Source: Chitinophagales bacterium
GTDB lineage: Bacteria; Bacteroidota; Bacteroidia; Chitinophagales; UBA2359
Direction of reading: 5' to 3'
DNA: 64,000 nt
Assembly: GCA_020629005.1 (NCBI GenBank)
Contig: JAHDEE010000004.1
Span: 1-64,000, forward strand
The position numbers were made by a program, and so were the translations under genes. Positions 35,750-48,784 of the stretch are shown here, piece after piece (position 1 is the stretch's first letter; every line of letters starts with the position of its first letter). The notes under the pieces were generated by a model. The model had not been told where the DNA came from. It saw only the letters and a list, made by a program, of their open reading frames with translations, and did not search any database.

Positions 35750-36577
35750 TTACTCAACAACCAAGAACTGTCTGGTAATCGATACACCATCGTTAACCAA
35801 CTTCAGAAAGTAAGTACCGTTTTCAAAGTCACTTACGTCGATTCTAAAATTATTGGCTCCTGCTTTTGTTTTTCGATCTTCCGTCTTGATTTCTTTACCA
35901 AGGATATCATAGACAATGATACCAACGCTTTCGACACTTGTGCTAAACTCGACATTTATTGCGTCCTGAGCAGGAATCGGATACAGGTCCATAGTGCTAT
36001 AGACTTCAGAGGCAAGCTCATTACTGGTGGAAACTGCTTCATTGGCAGTAACATCAACCAAACCTGTGAATACCCCTTTATCATGTAAGCTACCATCATT
36101 CAGGTCTGTGTTAAAACCTGTGTAATTTGCGTGTATATCCAGACCAAGCGGCTCGCCTGCACTCACAAGATCAAAGGTAAATCTAGCTACGTCAATCCAT
36201 TCCTCATTGACCACTGGGCAACCATTGTTGGCAGAATTCAACAATATGGCATAATTCCCTTCGCCTTGACCATTGATTTCCAATTTGTTAAAGCTCGATT
36301 CATAAGGAGCAAAGGTTCCACCTTCTGCACAGGGATATGTTCCTGTGAAATGTATGCCTTCAAAGGAGGGGTTAGCAACTGCTTCAAGATTATAGCTAAA
36401 GAACACTGTAGCTGTTCCTATTTTCAAGTCAGTATCCGCGGCACGAATTTGCGCGGTCACGGAAAATGATTCTCCGTCGATTTCACCATTGGCAAAACGT
36501 ACATCAACTGTTCCTGCATTTACGTTGGCAGAAAAGAAAACGGCCAACACTGCTAATAAACAATTTCTAAGATTCAT
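35750..36577 (-). CDS. small secreted protein with cohesin-like domain and T9SS sorting domain
   Basis: A 275-residue protein with signal peptide (MNLRNCLLAVLAVFFSANVNA). Residues ~22-175 are beta-rich and resemble a cohesin/CBM-type sandwich: VDVRFANGEIDGESFSVTAQ, TDLKIGTATVFFSYNLEAVA, EEWIDVARFTFDLVS. The C-terminus (~196-275; STMDLYPIPAQDAINVEFST, YDILGKEIKTEDRKTKAGAN, FENGTYFLKLVNDG) is a type A T9SS sorting domain, so it is exported through the outer membrane and attached to or released from the surface. Cohesin-like sandwiches often bind proteins or sugars; the partner is unknown. A CTAATATA (TATATTAG on the minus strand) 36 bp upstream may be its -7 box. Confidence 0.87.
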   Translation of the reverse strand: MNLRNCLLAVLAVFFSANVNAGTVDVRFANGEIDGESFSVTAQIRAADTDLKIGTATVFFSYNLEAVANPSFEGIHFTGTYPCAEGGTFAPYESSFNKLEINGQGEGNYAILLNSANNGCPVVNEEWIDVARFTFDLVSAGEPLGLDIHANYTGFNTDLNDGSLHDKGVFTGLVDVTANEAVSTSNELASEVYSTMDLYPIPAQDAINVEFSTSVESVGIIVYDILGKEIKTEDRKTKAGANNFRIDVSDFENGTYFLKLVNDGVSITRQFLVVE

Positions 36578-37686: not shown

Positions 37687-38388
37687 ATGAGGATTGACAT
37701 CATAACTACCGTACCGGAACTTTTGGCAAGCCCATTAAGCCATTCAATCCTGCAGAGAGCGCAGGATCGTGGCCTCTTAAGCGTACACATTGTTAATTTG
37801 CGAGACTATGCCACCAATAAGCAAAAGCAGGTAGACGACTATCAATATGGCGGAGGGGCAGGGATGGTGTTGATGGTGGAGCCTTTTGACAAATGTATTA
37901 AGGACCTGCGCTCGCGAAACTCCTACGAAGAAATCATTTATATGAGTCCTGACGGTGAATTGCTAAATCAATCCTTGGCCAATTCCTTGTCTTTATCTGG
38001 AAATCTGATGATCCTTTGTGGACACTATAAGGGCATCGATGAACGTATAAGAGAGCACTTCGTGACAAGGGAAATATCAATTGGCGACTATGTCATATCT
38101 GGTGGAGAATTGGCTGCAGCAGTGCTGGTTGACGCAATTGGAAGGCTAATACCTGGTGTGCTAAACGACGAAACTTCTGCCTTGTCGGATTCGTTTCAGG
38201 ATAATCTGATTGCTCCTCCAGTGTATACACGTCCTTCAGAATATAACGGTTGGGAAGTACCGGAAATACTGCTTTCTGGACATCAAGCGAAAATTGAAGA
38301 ATGGCGTTTGGAGCAGTCGTACGAGCGAACAAAATCGCGCAGACCCCAATTGTTTGATGATTCTGAAGAGAACAAGGATGCTGGCTAA
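37687..38388 (+). CDS. trmD: tRNA (guanine(37)-N1)-methyltransferase TrmD
   Basis: A 233-residue SPOUT methyltransferase that makes m1G37 in tRNAs with G36 and prevents +1 frameshifting. [20 protein letters not shown] is the start, [18 protein letters not shown] the SAM-side loop, and [20 protein letters not shown] with [20 protein letters not shown] the trefoil knot. The C-terminal domain ([20 protein letters not shown]) is complete. It lies alone here, whereas in many bacteria it sits with rpsP, rimM and rplS. It converges on the NlpC/P60 gene with a 4-bp stop overlap. Confidence 0.96.
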
Positions 38389-39146
38389 GCTAATGTGCTC
38401 ATCCGACGAATCGAATGAAGTTGATGGGTATATTCCCCATTTTCGTTCAAAATACCTTGATCATCGACTCGATTGATCTTTACGCTGCCACTTGCATGAA
38501 TCACTTCCTGGCAACCTAAAAGCAGACCGACGTGGCTGACCTGTTGCTTTCCTTCAGTGAAAAAAGCCAGGTCACCGGGGGTTACTTCCTTCAGTGAGCT
38601 AACAGTGTTGCCCTGCCCTGATTGCTGTGAGGAGTCTCTCATTAGCTGAATACCCTGCGTTCGATAAAGCAATTGGGTAAACCCGGAACAATCTAAGCCA
38701 GCAGCTGTGCGTCCACCCCAAAGGTAAGGAACATCGAGAAAGCTGTAGGATAGCTGGCAAATACTGGCATTTGCATTTTTGCTTGGCACAAAATTTCCAT
38801 CGAATTGAACGTTTGCCAATTCAAATGGTTCCGCCGGTAATAGTGTGCCGAATGGAATCCTGTGGAATCCACCTTTATAAAACAGTTTAGTATTGAATTT
38901 GGTCACAACAACCTTTGAAGCCGCCAACCAATCAAAGTATTGTTGATCGCTCAAGAAGGTTGCCTGGGAACGCTGCATCCAGCCCTGATAACTGTCACTG
39001 GTAAGACGAATCTGTATCCAATCAGCTTCGCTCTCATCAATGATGGTAAAAGTCTCTCCAAACAGGATTTGGTTTACCATTTCAGAACGGTGAGCGGCAG
39101 TAGCTCTCATTGGCGCCTGAGCAAGCAGGCAGGTCCCATATTTCAT
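38385..39146 (-). CDS. NlpC/P60 (C40) cell-wall peptidase with SH3-like domains
   Basis: A 253-residue protein with no clear signal peptide. SH3-like regions occupy ~1-120 ([40 protein letters not shown]). The C40 domain covers ~125-253: [20 protein letters not shown] with the catalytic cysteine, [20 protein letters not shown] with the histidine, and [14 protein letters not shown] with the third polar residue. Such enzymes cut gamma-D-glutamyl-diamino acid bonds in peptidoglycan fragments; a cytoplasmic member would recycle muropeptides, as reported for similar Bacteroidota enzymes. Start choice is uncertain. Confidence 0.88.
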
Positions 39147-39238: not shown

Positions 39239-39787
39239 CTAAGCACTATGCTCTTTTACCTTCTTCTGAAGGTTGTAGGTGCTCATATTTAGATAATCAA
39301 TCTTCTTCTTCAAGGTGTCGTTCATTTTCTTGAAAGACTCCATTTCGCGAGTGCGTATCTTGTCAAACTTTCTCAGCTTCTCCACCTCTTCTTGCACGGC
39401 CATCAGTTCTGCTTCGGCTTTTTCTCTTCCAGCGGCTTCTGAGTTGAAATCTGATACTGAGCGTTGCAGATCACGCTGCTCAAGTTCCAATTGGCCAACT
39501 TTGGATTTGAAATCCTTTGCTTCCGTAGACTTTTGCTTTAGATCACTTTTCAAATCCTTGTTTTCCTTGGAAGTTCTCTCAAGATTCTTGCTAAGCGACT
39601 TTACCTCGGCCTCAGCTTTGCCTTTTGCGGATAACAATTCTTTATTGGAATCTCTGAAAGAGTTAATCTCGGAGTTTACTTGCTCATATGCACCATTGGC
39701 CGCATCAAGTTTATTCCTGTACATGAGCCAGGTAGCGATGAAGCCAAGAATTGCTCCGGAGCACATGCCTAAAAAGAGTTGTGTCAT
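39239..39787 (-). CDS. membrane-anchored coiled-coil protein
   Basis: A 182-residue protein with one N-terminal membrane segment (LFLGMCSGAILGFIATWLMY, ~4-23) followed by an uninterrupted coiled coil from ~30 to 160 with many Lys, Glu and Ser residues (EVKSLSKNLERTSKENKDLK, EAKDFKSKVGQLELEQRDLQ). The topology resembles RmuC-like or generic scaffold proteins but no family is recognised. It has its own terminator hairpin, and a 101-bp gap separates it from the HU/SPOR gene upstream. Confidence 0.7.
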   Translation of the reverse strand: MTQLFLGMCSGAILGFIATWLMYRNKLDAANGAYEQVNSEINSFRDSNKELLSAKGKAEAEVKSLSKNLERTSKENKDLKSDLKQKSTEAKDFKSKVGQLELEQRDLQRSVSDFNSEAAGREKAEAELMAVQEEVEKLRKFDKIRTREMESFKKMNDTLKKKIDYLNMSTYNLQKKVKEHSA

Positions 39788-39888: not shown

Positions 39889-41259
39889 CTACTTAGTGTA
39901 AATCCAGGCCCTTGCAAAACCCTGTCTTTTGAGATTTTCGGCAGTTCTTTCTGCAACTGTTCGATCTCGCCCAACGTAAACAGCGGCCTTGTACATACCG
40001 CGTTCATCTTCATAAATTCGGGCATCTCGCAGTGCGGCGCGATTCTTTTTAAGAAAAGCCTGTGCGTTCTTTTGTTGTCCATATACATTAAGTACCACAT
40101 AATGGCCTCCATCTGAAAGACGGTTTACGCTTCCAGGGCTGTGGCTGCCTGCATGAGTCGCAGCTGAACTTCCAGCGGCTTTAACAGAGCTAGCTGCATT
40201 ACTAATTGCCTCTTTTCCGCTACCAAGACCGCTTTTCACTTTATCAGCGGCAGATTCCGCTAATTCTCCTGCTGCCGTACCTCCTGACTTGATTGCATTC
40301 CCCACACCTCTTGCTGCATCCGAAACTACTCCATCTTCTCCTACAACTGCATCAACCGTAGAACCCACTGCATTGCGGCTAGCATCTACTACTGACTCCG
40401 AAACATCGCGAACACTTCCCAAAGTAGCACTGCCGGCGTCTCGTGTAGCATTCGTAACGCCTTCGAGACTGTTTGCCCAATCAGCATCAGCACCAGTGTC
40501 ATTGAAGTTATTCCAGAGTTGATAAGCCAGACTACAACCCAAAATCAGGGCCAAAATCGGCAACACCCAGAGTAGCTTGCCCATGATACCTCTCTTTGGT
40601 TTTTCCTCAGGATACTGCGGCACAATTGCAGGTTCGTGCATATCTGTTCCTTCTTCAGCCTGAATCTTCTTTGCATTGTCAGCAAGTACATCTGCAATAG
40701 TCTTTTTAGGCGTAGGCTCAGGATTAGATTCACGATTGCTTATTGAATTATGTGAGCCGTTGATATGTGATGCAGGTGGCGGCGCTCCTGCCGTTTCAAC
40801 AGCAGGCTCAGGCATGGTATCAGAAGCGGCAAGTGTGGCAGCTTCGGTATCAGTGGCGACAGGCTTGAGACCAAAAGCATCTTTACTGAAGTTACTGTTG
40901 GCATCGGCTTTAAACGTGATGGCGCCATTTGAGTCGGCAGAGAAAATGCCGATTTTATCCAGATTCAGTGGATTGCCACTTCGTAGTGTATTTTCGCATT
41001 GCGCAACAAACCTTTTAATATGTTCCCTTCCGGATTCCTGCGAAATTTGCTCAGCCTTAGCAATGTGGCTTGCTAGCAGGTTGTCATTGATTTTTAGCGC
41101 TTGATTGAAATACACTTCTTTCCTGGGAGGTTCCACCTGATTTTGTTCACGATTGATCTTGGCTGGGGAATAGCGCGTACTGAAAGCCCCAAAATCAGGA
41201 ACGATCACAACACTATAATCGTAAAGTAGTGTGCGGATGTGTTTTGCAATATCTACCAT
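39889..41259 (-). CDS. HU-CCDC81/SPOR domain inner-membrane protein
   Basis: A 456-residue protein starting at the ATG at 41259 (MVDIAKHIRTLLYDYSVVIV). Residues ~1-130 are two HU/IHF-like domains of the bacterial CCDC81 type (VPDFGAFSTRYSPAKINREQ; NTLRSGNPLNLDKIGIFSAD). A proline/alanine-rich linker, one membrane segment (~230-253, LLWVLPILALILGCSLAYQL), an Ala/Ser/Gly-rich low-complexity stretch (~265-385), and a C-terminal SPOR domain (~386-456, HYVVLNVYGQQKNAQAFLKK) follow. SPOR domains bind peptidoglycan stripped of stem peptides at division sites, and HU-like domains bind DNA or proteins, so the protein could link nucleoid or cytoplasmic partners to the septum. It is third in an operon: TPR protein, barrel, this gene. 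Confidence 0.87.
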   Translation of the reverse strand: MVDIAKHIRTLLYDYSVVIVPDFGAFSTRYSPAKINREQNQVEPPRKEVYFNQALKINDNLLASHIAKAEQISQESGREHIKRFVAQCENTLRSGNPLNLDKIGIFSADSNGAITFKADANSNFSKDAFGLKPVATDTEAATLAASDTMPEPAVETAGAPPPASHINGSHNSISNRESNPEPTPKKTIADVLADNAKKIQAEEGTDMHEPAIVPQYPEEKPKRGIMGKLLWVLPILALILGCSLAYQLWNNFNDTGADADWANSLEGVTNATRDAGSATLGSVRDVSESVVDASRNAVGSTVDAVVGEDGVVSDAARGVGNAIKSGGTAAGELAESAADKVKSGLGSGKEAISNAASSVKAAGSSAATHAGSHSPGSVNRLSDGGHYVVLNVYGQQKNAQAFLKKNRAALRDARIYEDERGMYKAAVYVGRDRTVAERTAENLKRQGFARAWIYTK

Positions 41260-41269
41260 AGTTCTTTGC

Positions 41270-42877
41270 TTAAAAGATGAGTTTAAAGCCTCCCAAGGCT
41301 GTAATTCCATAGGTGGGGTAGCTGTAAAACCTCTGCTGCTTTGCACTTGTGACATTATTTAGGTCCAAAAACAGAGAGGCATTCTCACTGATAAAATAAT
41401 TTAAATTGAAGTTCAGATCAAAAATAGTTTTCAGATCTATTGCTGTTCGGTCAATTGCTCGTGCTTTACGACCAGCATACACAAACAGTTCACCTCCTGC
41501 GGCAACTTTTTCGTTGATTCTATAATCCAGACCTGCGTTGAACTTGAACCTTGGCAGGTGCCAGGCATACTCATGCGTTTCCGGTTTGTATATAAGATAA
41601 TTTGTCCCAATCCAGAGTCTGTCAAATTTGTTGAGGCTGTACCCCAATTCAGCTTGTATGTCGTAGTGTTTTAGCTTCTCTTCATAAACAACAACAAACC
41701 GCTCCTGCTTGATTGTATCATTGATGTACAATGGCTGATAATGGGTGAAGTTCTGCGCTGCCTGCAATTGAAACTCAATGCGATCTCCAGCAAATCCCTT
41801 TACTCCGACAAATCTTTTCTCCTTTCTTGAATTCTTGAAGTTTAGAAAAACGCTCACAAATGGATTTTCGCGGGCGAATTTGGTGTAATTGTTCTTTACT
41901 CCCTCCATCTGCCAACCAGCATAAGCAATCAGGGTTTGTTCGTTAAGGAATGCTTCTCCTAAAAGATGAGGGAAAGGATATACTTGAGTACTGTCAATGA
42001 TTACACTCATTCCGGCAACCAGCCTGCCCCCTTTGCCCTGTATTGTTGCTTTGGGGGTCAGTTGAACCAGAAGATTATCCCTATTACTAGTATCGGTATA
42101 AGCGGTATAATCAAAAAGGAAATCAGCACCTAATTGAAACCGGTCTTTGCCTTTGTTGACTTTTGCCTTTACTATGAAATTATGCTCGTCATTGATCGTT
42201 TGATTCCATGTATACTCATAGTTGACACCCGCCTGATAAATCAGATCCGAGATATTCTCCTCTGTGTTCCGATAAAGTAAGCCAAAGTCCAATGTGTTGA
42301 TAGCCTGCTTTGCATTCTCAACCTCTACGCTGTCGGGGGTTCCATATAACCAATAATTCCCTCGCTGAAAACCCACATGTGCTCCAATTTCACTAGTCTC
42401 GCCAAAGTAGCTTCCAAAGACTTTCCCACCAGTGCGTAGGAAATCAAAATCGTTCTTAGGATGCGCTGACAAATGATGGACGTGAAGCCCCATATTGTAA
42501 TCGTTGGATCTACCTGTAGCCAGACTCAAATCTCCTATTGTTGTCCATCGGTTGCCCAGACCCAGCTTCAACCAGGCATGCCTGAGTTGCTCCCTTTTGG
42601 TTGCACGAATGGCTAAGGGCTTAGGACTTATTGGCTCATAATCCATCGTTATCAAGCGCTCAGGCACTGAGTAGTCGTTAAACAAGGGCCGTTGGGCTCC
42701 ATCTTTATCCATCGGTGAATCCGGATTCACCTCTATTCTGTGTGATGTTGCAAGCTCAGGTCTAAACTTTGTCTGGATAAAAACGGTGTCAGTCGGTAAA
42801 TCAGACTGTGCAAACACACCTGTAACCACTAGAGTGATCCAGCTGCAAATAACAAGATGTTTATATATGATTCTCAT
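41270..42877 (-). CDS. outer-membrane beta-barrel protein
   Basis: A 535-residue exported protein (signal peptide to VTGVFAQ, ~24). The body is made of alternating-hydrophobicity strands typical of an outer-membrane barrel, ending in a phenylalanine (GITALGGFKLIF), the usual barrel assembly signal. There is no TonB box or plug domain, so it is not a TonB-dependent transporter. I recognise no specific family; homologues tend to follow TPR genes in Bacteroidota. Its ATG overlaps the TPR gene stop by one base (TAATG) and the HU/SPOR gene follows 10 bp downstream, so the three genes are tightly coupled. Confidence 0.8.
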   Translation of the reverse strand: MRIIYKHLVICSWITLVVTGVFAQSDLPTDTVFIQTKFRPELATSHRIEVNPDSPMDKDGAQRPLFNDYSVPERLITMDYEPISPKPLAIRATKREQLRHAWLKLGLGNRWTTIGDLSLATGRSNDYNMGLHVHHLSAHPKNDFDFLRTGGKVFGSYFGETSEIGAHVGFQRGNYWLYGTPDSVEVENAKQAINTLDFGLLYRNTEENISDLIYQAGVNYEYTWNQTINDEHNFIVKAKVNKGKDRFQLGADFLFDYTAYTDTSNRDNLLVQLTPKATIQGKGGRLVAGMSVIIDSTQVYPFPHLLGEAFLNEQTLIAYAGWQMEGVKNNYTKFARENPFVSVFLNFKNSRKEKRFVGVKGFAGDRIEFQLQAAQNFTHYQPLYINDTIKQERFVVVYEEKLKHYDIQAELGYSLNKFDRLWIGTNYLIYKPETHEYAWHLPRFKFNAGLDYRINEKVAAGGELFVYAGRKARAIDRTAIDLKTIFDLNFNLNYFISENASLFLDLNNVTSAKQQRFYSYPTYGITALGGFKLIF

Positions 42878-45800
42878 TATGGCCCCTCAATTTCTTCGGT
42901 TTCCAGATATTCTGAAGGCTTATCTGTTCCGATAGTTTGCAATTTACTTTTGGATTTCTCTTTTGCTTTTACCTGTTCCAGCTTTTGATTGACATCACGC
43001 AGAATTGCTTGATCCGAACCCTTATAGCCATTCTTTATGCTTAGCAATGTTTGTTTAGCCTGATACAATTCTCCTTTATGCTCATAATAGTCAGCCAACA
43101 GGATGTAACTTCGGACGAACCAGTTTTCGTTTCCCGGTGCCTCATTAATAACTTTGTATGCATATTCCTTGCATTGTTCCCATCGATTTTGGCGCTTGTA
43201 AATATCTGCCAGCAAATAGCGAGATTCCGCACCCATATCATTAGTAGTCAGAGGTACCACTTTCCCTAAATATTCGGCTGCTTTGGATATGCTGCCGCGA
43301 TCATAATGTGAGCGACCTGCATAAAAGTTAGCTTCGATAATGTCTTTTTCAGTCACGTCTTTTCGAGAAAGAATAGCACCGGTGTACTTATCTACTTCAG
43401 ATGTTTTTTTGAGCTTGAATGCCGTTCGCATCAGCCCACGCAAAGCCTCTAAGGAATAAGTTCTTTTCAAGGCATTTCGTTCCAGCTTCTCGTAGTACTC
43501 ATATGCTTTTGTATAATCCTTTCTCTGATAGTAAGCAATCCGTGCGGCCTTTTCCAGCGCCCTTTCCATGAACAAATCATTTCCATTCCTGATCACCGCA
43601 TCATAATCTTTTATTGCATCGTTGTAACCGGCACTCTCGTATAGACATTCTCCTCTATAGAAATGGGCATATACGATATATGCGCCATTCGGAAAGTCCT
43701 TCAAATACCGATTGAGTGAGTTGATCGTTCCTGTGCAGTCTCCCTTATCGTAGTAAGATTCTGCAGCCTGAAATGCAACAGCGTCCGCTTGGGAGCTGCT
43801 AACGTCTATTCCAAGCGACTTCATCTTCTTTCTAAATCCTTCGGAATCTCCCGAGGCTATGTAGACGTCCTGAAGCCCAGACAAAGCAGCCTGGGACTCA
43901 GCTGATTTGGGATACTTTCTCAAAACCTCTTCATAATACCTGATGGCCTGACTATTCTTATTTGTATTATAATTGATCAAGCCAAGATTGATCAGTGCCT
44001 GAGCCCGCTTGTCAGAATCAGGATAGGTATCAACCAGTCTTTGAAAAGTCGAAATTGCATCAGCGTAACTGCGGCTATTCAAGTGCGTTTGACCAATCTG
44101 AAATACGGCATCATCACGATATGATGACTCCGAATAACTCCGTTCCACCTCATTCATTAAACGAACCTTTTCAGCCGGATTCCTTTGCAGACCAGCTATA
44201 AGTCCCTTTTGATAGGTTGCATAATCAGCTCCCTCCCCTCTCTGGTCCAGGACTTGCTGATAGATTCCGGAAGCCTGACTATAATCTCCTGAAACAAAAT
44301 AGCAATCCCCTCCTCGAAGCATCGCATCGACAGCAACTTGCTTGCTTAATTTGCCGCTCTTTCCGCTTAGGCCGTTAACTGCACTCCTAAAGTGTTCACC
44401 GGCAGATGCATATTTCTTCTGATTCAAATAAGCGTAGCCGATCGTGTAGTCAGCCATCGCTGGGGAAACCTTTTCAGAAAGAGAACGTCCCCCGCTTTGA
44501 AACTCCTTCATTGTAGAGATCGCACGCTTGTATTTGTCCTGTCGAAAGTAAATATCTCCTTTCCAAAATCGAGCAAGTGAAGCGAGCTCACTACTGTGAG
44601 AATTTTGGATCGCCTTGTCAAACATCGGCAAGGCCTCCTCATACTTTCCATTACTGTACAATTCAATCCCATTGTAACAAGCCATCTTTTGATAAGTCTG
44701 CGTCATTCGGCTCGAACGATTTGGGATACTTTCAATGATCTCCATTGCCTCAGAATAATTGGAGTAGTTTTCTAACACTTCGCCAAGAAGGTCTTTGGCC
44801 TGCAAATTCCGACCTGAAGCCGGATACAAAGCGATAAAAGTTCTGAGGGCCTCCACTGCCTCACTATCAAATCCCATTTCATAAGACAGCTTTGCATGGT
44901 TAAATGCTGAAGTCTCTTTGATGATGGGGTCAAAATTCATTTTAGATGCGGATGAAAATGCATGACGGGCTTCGGCCTTTTCTCCAGTCTTGAGATAACA
45001 AGCAGCAAGATGATATTGTGCGTTTTGTCCTAAAGTATCTTCAAGGGTATTTAGATCCTTGAAGTTCCGGATAGCATCTCCATACTGTCCAAACTTATAT
45101 TGCGTATAAGCAAGTTGGTACAAATCTTCTTTCCGCACCTTTGAAGAGTTGTCAACATAGTACTTGAGATACGGAAGCGCCTTTTCAAACTGCTTCTGAT
45201 TGTAATATGTCTGACCCAGGATGTTATTGATCTCCTTGCGGAATTTCAGCCCGTTCCGCTTTAGCACTGGCTCGGCATAGTTGGCTAATTCATCGTTTCT
45301 ACCCCATGTGTACAGGATCTGGATAATGTAATACGGAACTGTCTTTGAATACAGCTTATCGTTTTCAATTTGGCGAAAACTATCCATAGCCTTTTCATAG
45401 TCATCTTTCTCAAAGGCGATATACCCTACATAATAGTTTGCTGCAGCTCGGTAATCATTGGGAAAGTTCGCAATCTGCTCAAATAAAGGCTGAGCCTGAT
45501 CAAACTTTTTGAATATAAAATAGCTATAAGCTTGCCTAAAGTAGAAGTCCTGAAGATACTCCGGACCCAGATAACTTACATCCACCTTCTCGTAGTACTG
45601 TATTGCGTTTTTGTACTTTTTATTCTCATAGTAATGTTGTGCAATCTGAAAATTGCATTCTGCTGCTAGCCTGCCTCTACCGGGATATTGATTTATGATC
45701 TGAATAAACCCCAAAACGGCATCCGGATTTCCAAGATGCTTTGCAGACATCGCCCCTAAATACATCGCGGTCTCCCGGCGCAAAGTCCAATCCTCCCCAT

Positions 45801-45996
45801 GATCGTACTCTGTTTCACTCAAGAAGGTGCGAAACTCTTTTTTAGCTAGCGTATAGTTTCCTCTCTGATACCAATCAATAGCGCTCTTATATCTATGATC
45901 TGGATCAGTGTAAATCATGTTTTCCTGTGCCTGCAAAATGGGCGACGCGAAAAGCAGAGAAATGGAGATTAAGATAAGTAGTATCCTGAATCGCAT
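42877..45996 (-). CDS. large exported tetratricopeptide repeat protein
   Basis: A 1039-residue protein with signal peptide (MRFRILLILISISLLFASPI, cleavage near LQAQ). Nearly all of the mature chain is TPR-like helical repeats: ALPYLKYYVDNSSKVRKEDL, AVEALRTFIALYPASGRNLQ, AISTFQRLVDTYPDSDKRAQ, AIRYYEEVLRKYPKSAESQA, and others, about 25 in all. The C-terminus is a charged tail (KAKEKSKSKLQTIGTDKPSE). Such periplasmic scaffolds gather partner proteins. It begins the operon with the barrel and HU/SPOR genes, and a -7 box lies 57 bp upstream. Confidence 0.9.
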   Translation of the reverse strand: MRFRILLILISISLLFASPILQAQENMIYTDPDHRYKSAIDWYQRGNYTLAKKEFRTFLSETEYDHGEDWTLRRETAMYLGAMSAKHLGNPDAVLGFIQIINQYPGRGRLAAECNFQIAQHYYENKKYKNAIQYYEKVDVSYLGPEYLQDFYFRQAYSYFIFKKFDQAQPLFEQIANFPNDYRAAANYYVGYIAFEKDDYEKAMDSFRQIENDKLYSKTVPYYIIQILYTWGRNDELANYAEPVLKRNGLKFRKEINNILGQTYYNQKQFEKALPYLKYYVDNSSKVRKEDLYQLAYTQYKFGQYGDAIRNFKDLNTLEDTLGQNAQYHLAACYLKTGEKAEARHAFSSASKMNFDPIIKETSAFNHAKLSYEMGFDSEAVEALRTFIALYPASGRNLQAKDLLGEVLENYSNYSEAMEIIESIPNRSSRMTQTYQKMACYNGIELYSNGKYEEALPMFDKAIQNSHSSELASLARFWKGDIYFRQDKYKRAISTMKEFQSGGRSLSEKVSPAMADYTIGYAYLNQKKYASAGEHFRSAVNGLSGKSGKLSKQVAVDAMLRGGDCYFVSGDYSQASGIYQQVLDQRGEGADYATYQKGLIAGLQRNPAEKVRLMNEVERSYSESSYRDDAVFQIGQTHLNSRSYADAISTFQRLVDTYPDSDKRAQALINLGLINYNTNKNSQAIRYYEEVLRKYPKSAESQAALSGLQDVYIASGDSEGFRKKMKSLGIDVSSSQADAVAFQAAESYYDKGDCTGTINSLNRYLKDFPNGAYIVYAHFYRGECLYESAGYNDAIKDYDAVIRNGNDLFMERALEKAARIAYYQRKDYTKAYEYYEKLERNALKRTYSLEALRGLMRTAFKLKKTSEVDKYTGAILSRKDVTEKDIIEANFYAGRSHYDRGSISKAAEYLGKVVPLTTNDMGAESRYLLADIYKRQNRWEQCKEYAYKVINEAPGNENWFVRSYILLADYYEHKGELYQAKQTLLSIKNGYKGSDQAILRDVNQKLEQVKAKEKSKSKLQTIGTDKPSEYLETEEIEGP

Positions 45997-46498: not shown

Positions 46499-46499
46499 T
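46320..46499 (-). CDS. possible small protein overlapping the TonB receptor stop
   Basis: An ATG at 46499 overlaps the TGA stop of the TonB-dependent receptor gene by one base (TGATG), opening a 59-codon frame. The product (MAYNITRNYWKCLLPNAKAA at its start) has four cysteines or tryptophans in short order but no signal peptide, membrane segment or known family. The overlap suggests coupling, but a frame this short can arise by chance. Confidence 0.2.
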   Translation of the reverse strand: MAYNITRNYWKCLLPNAKAAVSSLCLQGINGTCGMTLMPWAQNTESFERLLIPLIQYWA

Positions 46500-48784
46500 C
46501 AAAAGGTAAGCGAGACGCCAAGACTTGGTAGTAAGGGCAGTTGATTTACCCGATCATATCGCACTCTATCGAAATAGAAAATATTTGCTCGGTCATAAAC
46601 ATTTGTTGCACTTGCAATGGCCTCTAGCTGAGAGTCCCCAAAAAGAACCCAGGACTTCTTCAACGATAGGTCCATCCGATGATAGTAGGGCAACTGGCCT
46701 CGATTCAACTCGTCCTCATAGAGAATACCGAGATTTCCGTTTGCAGTATTCAAATCAGTGTTGAGTCCATCATTGAAACTCAACTCCTCATAAAAGCCTT
46801 GAGTCTTGGTGAATGGGAACCCTGATCCCAAATTCCACCTTACACTAAATTCCCAATTCAAAGCAGGACCAAAATTGTAGGCTCCCAGGAAATTCAGGTT
46901 ATGTCTTCGATCGAAATGAGGAGGATACTCCTGCCGGCCATTGTCTCGATTCACAAAGCTATAGGAGTATACACCCCAAACATACCAGTTCTTGAAATCG
47001 TATTTAGCGAGGAAATCGATTCCATAGGCATTTCCCTCTTCGGTGACATAGTCAGGATCGGTTGGGAATAACTTGTCACGATTGATATTGATCAGTTGTG
47101 GATAGCCCTTGTAGTAAGACTCCACGTTAAATGTCAATGATCGGGTAGGTTCAAATTCTACCCCTCCAATAAAGTGATAAGCAGTCTGCAGATTATTATT
47201 CGACTTGTTCCCTTCGATATCCAACAAACGCTCCTCCGGAGCTGAAAGAAAGCCAGTAAACAAATTCACGACATCCTGATCAGACTTTGTACTGATAAAG
47301 TTCTGAGTATAAATTCCTGTGGCTGCCTTAAATCGCAGTTTGTTTGAAGCATTGTACTTCATTCCAAATCTCGGTTCAAATCCAACATCTGAAAGAGAAG
47401 CATAGTAATTGAGCCTCAGACCAGGCTCAATAAGAAGTTTCCCGTTGGCAAGAATACCTTTGTACTTGAGAAAACCACCCAACTCCGTCGTATTCTCGTT
47501 TTGGTCAATTTTTAACCCAAGCGCATTAAAAAACTCGAAAGTAGTGGCAAATCCGCCCACATTGATACCATACTTGATATCCCCATTTCGCAGAAAGTAA
47601 GAACAAACAAGATCCAGATTGAATCCGCCAATAGTCGAAGTCCTGGGCTTTTGATCTGCCTCAATCAATTCCATCGAATATTGAGAATAAGAAAAATGAC
47701 CATCTATAATCACCTTGCTGGCACCTGGCACTATAATGAAATTACTGCCGCCACCGAAGGCATCCCAGCCAAACAGTGAGCTACCGTTGTAATCCACTTG
47801 ATCTTTCTGACTATACCCTGAAAGACTAAACTTCGAGCCACTGTTACTATTCATAGACAGCTTTCCATAGAAATCCGTAAAAGTAAATGGCAGACCTTCA
47901 GGATCTATATACTCATACAAGGTCTTAGAGGTCTGATCCAAATAAGAGTGTTTCACCGCTGCCACATACGAGATGCTTGTACCATTCTCCTTCAATTTAG
48001 AAATAGGACCTTCCAAAATCCCTTTTACCATAAATGGACTGGCAGCAATCTTTCCACCCATTTCATTTTTGTTTCCATCCTTTGTCGCAACATCAACAAC
48101 TGCGGAAATTCTACCTCCGTGCTCGGCACCAAATCCGCCGGTCATCACATCCACATTCTTAATGATCTCGGTCTCAAAAATCGAGAATAGGCCTATGGAG
48201 TGAAAAGGATTATAAACCGTAATACCGTCCAACAGCATCTTGGTCTGAATAGGAGAACCACCCCTTATGTATAACTGCCCTCCTTGATCACCAGTAAATA
48301 CAACACCAGGAATCACCTGCAGGTATTGCGCCAGGTCGGGCTCCCCTCCTACTGAGGGTATCTTCTCAATTTGCTTTGGAGAAACCTTAATCGAAGACAT
48401 CCTAACCTCTGTCTTCGCTTCCTGCTTTGCCGCCGAAATCTCGACTGCAGTCAACATCACCCCACTCTCAGTGATAAAAAGCTTTTGGTTGAGGATCTGC
48501 CCTGCTTTCAAAGTAATAGCAACTCTCGCTGTATCATATCCAACATAGGTAGACACCAGCGTATAGTCCCCGGCCGGAACTTGAGAAATCGCGTACAAAC
48601 CCTCAATATCCGTAGAGGCTCCCATAGTGGTGCCCTCCAAATATACATTGGTAAACAGTATTGGCTCACCGCTGTCCTTATCGTATACAAAGCCTCGAAT
48701 ATCTCCCGTTTGAGCATTGGCTAATAAACAGACAAAAAGCCCAATAAGGCTAAGTAAACAGTTCAACAGTGATTTCCCTGGCAT
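46499..48784 (-). CDS. TonB-dependent receptor with carboxypeptidase-like regulatory domain
   Basis: A 761-residue outer-membrane receptor. Signal peptide to LLANAQ (~25); a carboxypeptidase regulatory-like domain at ~27-110 (GFVYDKDSGEPILFTNVYLE, GLYAISQVPAGDYTLVSTYV); a plug domain at ~120-235 (SVGGEPDLAQYLQVIPGVVF, LYIRGGSPIQTKMLLDGITV); then the beta-barrel, ending in VSLTF. The family takes up siderophores, vitamins or oligomers using TonB; the ligand is unknown. No SusD partner is adjacent, so it is not a typical glycan locus. It lies 21 bp downstream of tsaC on the same strand. Confidence 0.92.
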   Translation of the reverse strand: MPGKSLLNCLLSLIGLFVCLLANAQTGDIRGFVYDKDSGEPILFTNVYLEGTTMGASTDIEGLYAISQVPAGDYTLVSTYVGYDTARVAITLKAGQILNQKLFITESGVMLTAVEISAAKQEAKTEVRMSSIKVSPKQIEKIPSVGGEPDLAQYLQVIPGVVFTGDQGGQLYIRGGSPIQTKMLLDGITVYNPFHSIGLFSIFETEIIKNVDVMTGGFGAEHGGRISAVVDVATKDGNKNEMGGKIAASPFMVKGILEGPISKLKENGTSISYVAAVKHSYLDQTSKTLYEYIDPEGLPFTFTDFYGKLSMNSNSGSKFSLSGYSQKDQVDYNGSSLFGWDAFGGGSNFIIVPGASKVIIDGHFSYSQYSMELIEADQKPRTSTIGGFNLDLVCSYFLRNGDIKYGINVGGFATTFEFFNALGLKIDQNENTTELGGFLKYKGILANGKLLIEPGLRLNYYASLSDVGFEPRFGMKYNASNKLRFKAATGIYTQNFISTKSDQDVVNLFTGFLSAPEERLLDIEGNKSNNNLQTAYHFIGGVEFEPTRSLTFNVESYYKGYPQLININRDKLFPTDPDYVTEEGNAYGIDFLAKYDFKNWYVWGVYSYSFVNRDNGRQEYPPHFDRRHNLNFLGAYNFGPALNWEFSVRWNLGSGFPFTKTQGFYEELSFNDGLNTDLNTANGNLGILYEDELNRGQLPYYHRMDLSLKKSWVLFGDSQLEAIASATNVYDRANIFYFDRVRYDRVNQLPLLPSLGVSLTF

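Follow-up and report, generated by a model that had tools for sequence, protein, structure and literature searches.

The operon described here lies in a window comprising the whole 64,000-nucleotide stretch of Chitinophagales bacterium DNA that was analysed. It encodes a periplasmic TPR protein, an outer-membrane barrel predicted to lack a plug, and an inner-membrane protein with predicted HU and SPOR domains, and the trio looks like the half that survives of an ancient gene set, to which motor genes and an arm gene also belong in many relatives. On balance, the set probably specifies a Tol-like coupler across the envelope, driven by protons and sited at the septum, in which the barrel and the TPR protein stand in place of TolB-Pal. 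This proposal is built on observed gene linkage, domain content, predicted folds and a motor trio carried elsewhere in the same genome, and from it we infer a complex, a pulling action, septal localisation and a function in division. A literature search of titles and abstract openings returned no paper describing this operon.

The operon and its three products

The initial annotation had described one tight operon of TPR, plugless barrel and HU-TM-SPOR genes, with a 1-bp overlap between the first two and a 10-bp gap. Three minus-strand open reading frames occupy these positions, and both the overlap (TAATG) and the gap are present in the sequence. A longer start for the HU-SPOR frame, at 41355, falls inside the barrel gene, and the ATG at 41259 was used. 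The features are as follows.

42877..45996, minus strand: periplasmic TPR scaffold with a Sec signal peptide and no lipobox; 1039 aa
41270..42877, minus strand: predicted plugless outer-membrane barrel of the TonB-dependent-receptor type; 535 aa, 1-bp overlap with the TPR gene
42587..42808, minus strand: conserved N-terminal extension of the mature barrel, residues 24-97, at the usual place of the plug; low confidence in the model
42770..42790, minus strand: TonB-box-like strand of the barrel, residues 30-36, DTVFIQT; pattern in 74/88 barrels
39889..41259, minus strand: HU-HU-TM-SPOR inner-membrane protein; 456 aa from the ATG at 41259
40873..41259, minus strand: two HU-CCDC81-type domains, residues 1-129, predicted cytoplasmic; from Pfam, model and Foldseek
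40498..40593, minus strand: single transmembrane helix, approximately residues 223-254; from the model
39892..40113, minus strand: SPOR domain, residues 383-456, predicted periplasmic; Pfam E 0.014 (below cut-off) and fold
46499..48784, minus strand: TonB-dependent receptor on the upstream side, carrying CarboxypepD_reg and plug domains; 502 bp from the TPR gene

Of 20 relatives fetched, 7 carry this upstream receptor (49-58% identity) directly beside TPR. It was considered as a core component and set aside: at E<=1e-100 it occurs in 5/59 genomes of the window's class, in none of them near the TPR gene, and it is probably a neighbour rather than part of the operon core. On the other side, the HU-SPOR gene is followed by genes for a cell-wall hydrolase of the NlpC/P60 type and for a coiled-coil-like protein whose N-terminus is hydrophobic (38385-39146 and 39239-39787). 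Both recur at one related locus (L063), and the hydrolase also at two others (L067, L068). Further along, 35750-36577 encodes a secreted protein, the C-terminus of which we take to resemble a type IX secretion sorting domain.

The TPR protein matched Pfam TPR_6 at 8.4e-46 and has no cysteine among its first 35 residues, and therefore no lipobox. The approximately 25 repeats that had been claimed for it were not confirmed as a count, with Pfam marking at most 12 TPR stretches and the length permitting at most about 29-30. Its best NCBIfam match was the YbgF (CpoB) model, a phmmer search with the protein retrieved CpoB (6g5s) and YbgF (2xev), and the TPR profile matched E. coli CpoB at 2.7e-19. 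CpoB/YbgF is described as a small periplasmic protein of 28 kDa with a trimer coiled coil and a three-repeat TPR domain (PMC7391070). The window's protein shares the TPR match only; at 1039 aa, with repeats along its length, it is about four times as long as CpoB.

The barrel protein had no Pfam or NCBIfam match at E<=10, and a sequence search for solved relatives returned none at the same threshold. An AlphaFold model built with 21 sequences (mean pLDDT 78.6) contains about 22 strands from residue 101 on, by our count from the DSSP list, the strand number characteristic of TonB-dependent transporters. The nearest solved structures were BtuB and FhuA, with BtuB giving the best score (Z 22.7, 399 aligned residues, rmsd 3.4 Å). 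Because the alignments with BtuB and FhuA start only at about model residue 86-98, the barrel is predicted to lack a folded plug; residues 1-97 are of low confidence and unfolded in the model, and Pfam found no plug domain (PF07715). The model thus agrees with the earlier claim of an outer-membrane barrel without a plug, and depicts a TonB-dependent-receptor barrel minus its plug.

The mature N-terminus of the barrel carries glutamine in 88 of 89 alignment rows. It is followed by a conserved short strand (e.g., EEIVVTTAYKP and ETVNVVKPYTP, or LPEFVITG outside the class), which we liken to the TonB box. The pattern [DEQN] in one of two positions followed by [VILMF]-x-[IV] occurs at this N-terminal place in 74 of 88 barrels and at 1.6% of positions in the barrel part, the pattern having been picked after the alignment was viewed.

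In the third protein, Pfam identified HU-CCDC81_bac_1 (1.6e-19) and HU-CCDC81_bac_2 (4.2e-13), both over cut-off and in the tandem arrangement of bacterial HU-CCDC81 proteins, together with a SPOR match below its cut-off (E 0.014). A model built with 12 sequences (mean pLDDT 66, long parts of it being of low confidence) contains confident HU domains, a single transmembrane helix and, at residues 386-455, a b-a-b-b-a-b element (pLDDT 84-92) that has the C-terminal SPOR fold. Foldseek matched the SPOR part to the CwlC peptidoglycan-binding domain (1x60, TMt 0.66) and the HU part to 1huu (TMt 0.79), every E-value being above 0.001, and a sequence search for solved relatives gave none better than E 0.49. 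These predictions favour the inner-membrane protein with cytoplasmic HU and periplasmic SPOR domains that had been proposed, the domains and one transmembrane helix being found and the sides predicted.

The HU domains had also been put forward as a link to chromosome partitioning, and the bacterial CCDC81-type domains are reportedly the subject of a published proposal in a 2017 paper on the HU superfamily; a literature search for CCDC81 with SPOR or HU found nothing. HU was considered as the constant element of the third gene and rejected. Among 63 third-gene proteins, SPOR was detected in 51, HU-CCDC81_bac_2 in 33 and HU-CCDC81_bac_1 in 25, and HU (PF18174) was not found in any of the six genomes of family f27, all of which carry the full operon. 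The link is accordingly weak; since the HU domain is optional in these proteins, their main task is unlikely to lie in chromosome partitioning.

Conservation of the gene pair and linkage to motor genes

Conservation was surveyed in 238 genomes of the phylum, 59 of which belong to the window's class besides the window's own. A TPR orthologue was present at E<=1e-60 in 59/59 of these class genomes and in 126/238 genomes of the phylum. The barrel was likewise matched in 59/59, two of the matches being weak and partial (G266, G274), and gave a single strong match in most genomes. Within the same order, 40 genomes, with that of the window among them, gave matches to the TPR protein (E<=1e-20) in 35 cases, the barrel in 37 and the HU-SPOR protein in 36. 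The TPR and barrel genes are adjacent (same strand, <=1.5 kb) in 58/59 class genomes, a linkage far above chance, the sole exception being a genome in which they lie 188 kb apart (G089). HU (PF18174) is encoded somewhere in 46/59 class genomes and adjoins the barrel gene in only 12/59. Comparison of the two adjacencies marks the TPR-barrel pair as the core, from which the third gene has become separated in most class members. Conservation of the three-gene order, the check suggested in the initial annotation, therefore holds for the pair and is weak for the HU-SPOR gene within the class; outside the class the third gene is kept, with SPOR downstream at 30/58 TPR loci. The envelope-spanning assembly that had been suggested is favoured by a conserved unit predicted to touch the cytoplasm, inner membrane, peptidoglycan and outer membrane, and weakened by the sparse adjacency of HU-SPOR and barrel genes in the class.

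For gene neighbourhoods, 140 loci were fetched, the genes downstream of TPR were read in 137, and 120 had >=6 kb downstream, 62 within the class and 58 outside it, from 32 families. Outside the class, the set took in each of the 66 TPR-positive genomes, and seven class loci were left out of the counts (G035, G104, G206, G210, G238, G242 and G258, six of them in family f24). Local profiles detected a barrel at 77 of the 120 loci, SPOR at 49, HU at 29, TolQ at 41 and TolR at 40. At 14 loci missed by the barrel profile, TPR and SPOR are separated by an ORF of >=400 aa. Pooled without the middle ORF of L113, 13 of these ORFs from other classes proved by profile comparison to be of the same family as the barrels (99.8% probability, E 9e-29, 515 columns). 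None of the five markers was seen at 29 of the 120 loci, mainly the 24 of family f42; this family, in which no barrel was seen, accounts for 24/58 of the non-class loci.

Several variant arrangements were observed. In f42 or nearby loci outside the class (L121, L133, L134, L137-L143 and others), the TPR gene stands without a barrel gene and its most frequent successor is a gene of ~428 aa, and in several genomes of family f24 (L126, L216, L219, L222) an ORF of 287-304 aa is inserted between the TPR and barrel genes. The 80 named loci come nearly all from Pedobacter or other Sphingobacteriaceae; of the 73 with >=6.5 kb downstream, 46 carry all genes, 13 carry all genes with a SPOR missed by the profile, and 14 carry the barrel alone. 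Those with the barrel alone (L269, L270, L275-L277, L279 and others) are nearly all Pedobacter, and in the two that were read there is no forward-strand gene longer than 110 aa for ~2.5 kb.

A TolQ/ExbB-type gene lies downstream at 41/120 TPR loci in 12/32 families (f22, f27 and f28 in the class and nine families outside it), and a TolR/ExbD-type gene at 40/120. TolQ-type ORFs numbered 42 in 1,474,653 bp downstream of TPR versus 0 in 496,334 bp upstream. Linkage is found at only 14/62 class loci and is absent at loci of the window's own family. Pfam confirmed the ExbB and ExbD families for the neighbours tested. The TolQ model outscored the ExbB model in the three proteins tested (92/53, 88/64 and 104/76 bits), and the TolR-type protein resembles ExbD about as closely as it does TolR, with E. 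coli ExbD outscoring TolR; NCBIfam scores for TolQ, TolR and TolA were all below the equivalog cut-offs. The motor genes are usually followed by a gene for a TolA/TonB-like arm. The arm set (A5) comprised 27 of the 30 ORFs after TolR, with L114, L122 and L136 omitted as not arm-like; TonB_C was found in 14/27 of its proteins and an S/T-x3-H motif near the N-terminus in 18/27, the nine without it including all six of f22. The gene context of the operon is thus larger than first claimed, the initial annotation having missed the motor genes, the arm and the TonB-box-like N-terminus of the barrel. After the arm gene, loci of f22, f27 and f28 (L130, L191, L194, L207, L209-L212, L315) carry a gene of ~430-440 aa, the product of which may resemble folylpolyglutamate synthase.

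A profile of the operonic TolQ family (A8), built from 29 of the 42 TolQ ORFs, had matches in 28/28 genomes searched, including genomes without the operon, and the best match was mostly one clear winner (312.7 versus 186.3 bits for the next in the window's genome). In the window's genome, a TolQ-TolR-arm trio resides on another contig (C69). Its first two products form a TolQ/TolR-type motor pair (PF01618 at 1.2e-30, PF02472 at 7.8e-24), and its arm has a transmembrane helix, the motif S-I-V-V-H and a TonB_C-like end (E 0.0027, below cut-off). At the 25 non-operonic best-match TolQ loci, the short flank holds TolR in 24 cases and an arm candidate in 20, and no TPR, barrel, SPOR or HU gene was found in it. 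In one TolQ tree, these 25 best matches group together with the 10 operonic TolQ genes from the class (98/98), and two second copies stand apart from this group. The tree held 21 operonic ORFs and no E. coli TolQ, and E. coli ExbB, on a very long branch, decides nothing. A single clade of all operonic copies was considered and was not recovered. These observations fit an ancestral operon that was split in most class members, the direction being read from gene order in other classes.

Comparison with known envelope systems

TolB_N (PF04052) was not found in the window's genome and matched in 1/59 class genomes, in a partial 309-aa frame. Across the phylum it matched in 14/238 genomes, nine with TolB-sized frames, all in family f36, where no TPR gene was found at E<=1e-60. 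The complementarity of TolB and TPR genes gave a Fisher p of 9e-4; since 9/9 TolB-sized matches fall in one family, they amount to one event and the complementarity is weak. The distribution is consistent with replacement, although it reflects a single lineage. In a 2025 survey, no identifiable tol-pal loci are reported in Bacteroidetes, and PorE is offered as a candidate (PMC12204202). This covers Pal as well, for which OmpA-like domains are too widespread to be informative by their number alone.

With Tol-Pal (TolQ-TolR-TolA-TolB-Pal-CpoB) the present set shares a TolQ/TolR-type motor, a TolA/TonB-like arm and a periplasmic TPR protein, encoded in one operon in many relatives. It differs in the absence of a detected TolB from the window's genome, in a predicted plugless receptor-type barrel as the outer-membrane partner, and in the HU/SPOR protein of the operon. 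With TonB-dependent transporters energised by ExbB-ExbD-TonB it shares the predicted barrel fold (BtuB, FhuA), a TonB-box-like N-terminus and a related motor, and it differs in that its barrel lacks a detectable plug, is tightly linked to the TPR and often SPOR genes, and gives mostly one strong match per genome. Because TolB was not detected, the system is not counted as a member of Tol-Pal, and because a plug was not detected, it is not counted among TonB-dependent transporters. PorE is a proposed tether between outer membrane and peptidoglycan in Bacteroidetes, a lipoprotein with TPR, TolB-like, CP and OmpA-like domains; it shares a TPR part and has likewise been proposed for the gap that the missing tol-pal loci leave, but it is one lipoprotein, whereas the genes here are arranged differently (PMC12204202). 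The word 'SPOR' is absent from the main text of that survey. The survey also describes sets of TPR, tolQ-like, tolR-like and vWA genes in the PVC group, which likewise place a TPR gene by a TolQR-like motor and an arm; there the arm is a vWA protein, and in the passages concerned a barrel or SPOR gene is unmentioned (PMC12204202).

A possible Tol-like coupler and its alternatives

The three genes would encode the outer-membrane and septum-targeting half of a Tol-like system of Bacteroidota. A TolQ-TolR proton motor in the inner membrane would move the TolA/TonB-like arm, the C-terminal domain of which would grip the TonB-box-like N-terminus of the barrel by strand addition, so that the motor would be coupled to the outer membrane via the barrel and not via TolB-Pal, with no Pal recycling through TolB. 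The arm-barrel mechanism is modelled on reports that TolA binds the TolB N-terminus by strand augmentation, structurally similar to TonB with the TonB box, and that the TPRs of CpoB bind TolA and PBP1B (PMC7391070). As CpoB does on a small scale, the large TPR scaffold would hold the barrel, the arm and peptidoglycan synthases together, and the SPOR protein would bring the assembly to septal peptidoglycan from which stem peptides have been removed. Invagination of the outer membrane would then follow septal wall synthesis, and the HU domains would be an optional cytoplasmic attachment. In its most specific form, the proposal is that this is the missing Tol system of Bacteroidota, with the motor and arm pulling directly on a plugless TonB-box barrel, a giant TPR scaffold, the SPOR protein steering it to the septum, and HU taking part in some of the phylum; this form is tentative, and we hold it at somewhat less than an even chance. 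The motor trio could serve ordinary TonB-dependent receptors too.

The same genes might instead specify an energised outer-membrane apparatus for export or import (e.g., of surface lipoproteins, lipids or polysaccharide), formed by the barrel and the TPR protein and driven by the trio as a private or shared Ton-type energiser, with SPOR only placing it where new envelope is made. The predicted receptor fold of ~22 strands without a plug, which could be a wide channel, the TonB-box-like strand and the similar closeness of TolR to ExbD and to TolR would all suit such an apparatus. This reading is nevertheless rather unlikely: wherever the genes stay linked the third is usually SPOR, the barrel differs from nutrient receptors in giving a single strong match in most genomes, and no recurrent substrate-binding or enzyme gene was recognised in the loci read, where a minority of the flanking ORFs was identified.

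A septal link that also carries the chromosome, with the HU domains holding DNA for partitioning, would make use of the HU-type fold that the model and Foldseek point to (1huu, TMt 0.79) and of the HU-CCDC81 domains in 25-33 of the 63 third-gene proteins. It is improbable given that detectable HU is missing from some third-gene proteins, with PF18174 in 0/6 of the f27 full-operon genomes, and that DNA binding by CCDC81-type HU domains is putative, from a reported proposal. Loss of SPOR and motor linkage in most families of the class would be expected if a housekeeping TPR-barrel pair had merely coincidental neighbours, the SPOR and motor genes having joined it by chance in some lineages. Against such coincidence, which we regard as improbable, 12 families within the class and beyond it share one gene order, the number of motor genes upstream of TPR is 0, and the operonic and non-operonic TolQ genes are one family with clear best matches.

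Bacteroidota are a major phylum in gut, soil and sea, and a Tol-like coupler would bear on how their cells link constriction of the outer membrane to growth of the septal wall, a process for which the phylum has no recognised machine. The TPR and barrel genes were matched in every sampled genome of the class, and a motor, an arm and a septum-targeting domain are encoded alongside in many relatives. If the barrel, which has no family name, lost its plug and yet kept a TonB-box-like strand, a transporter would have been put to unusual new use, as a mechanical handle.
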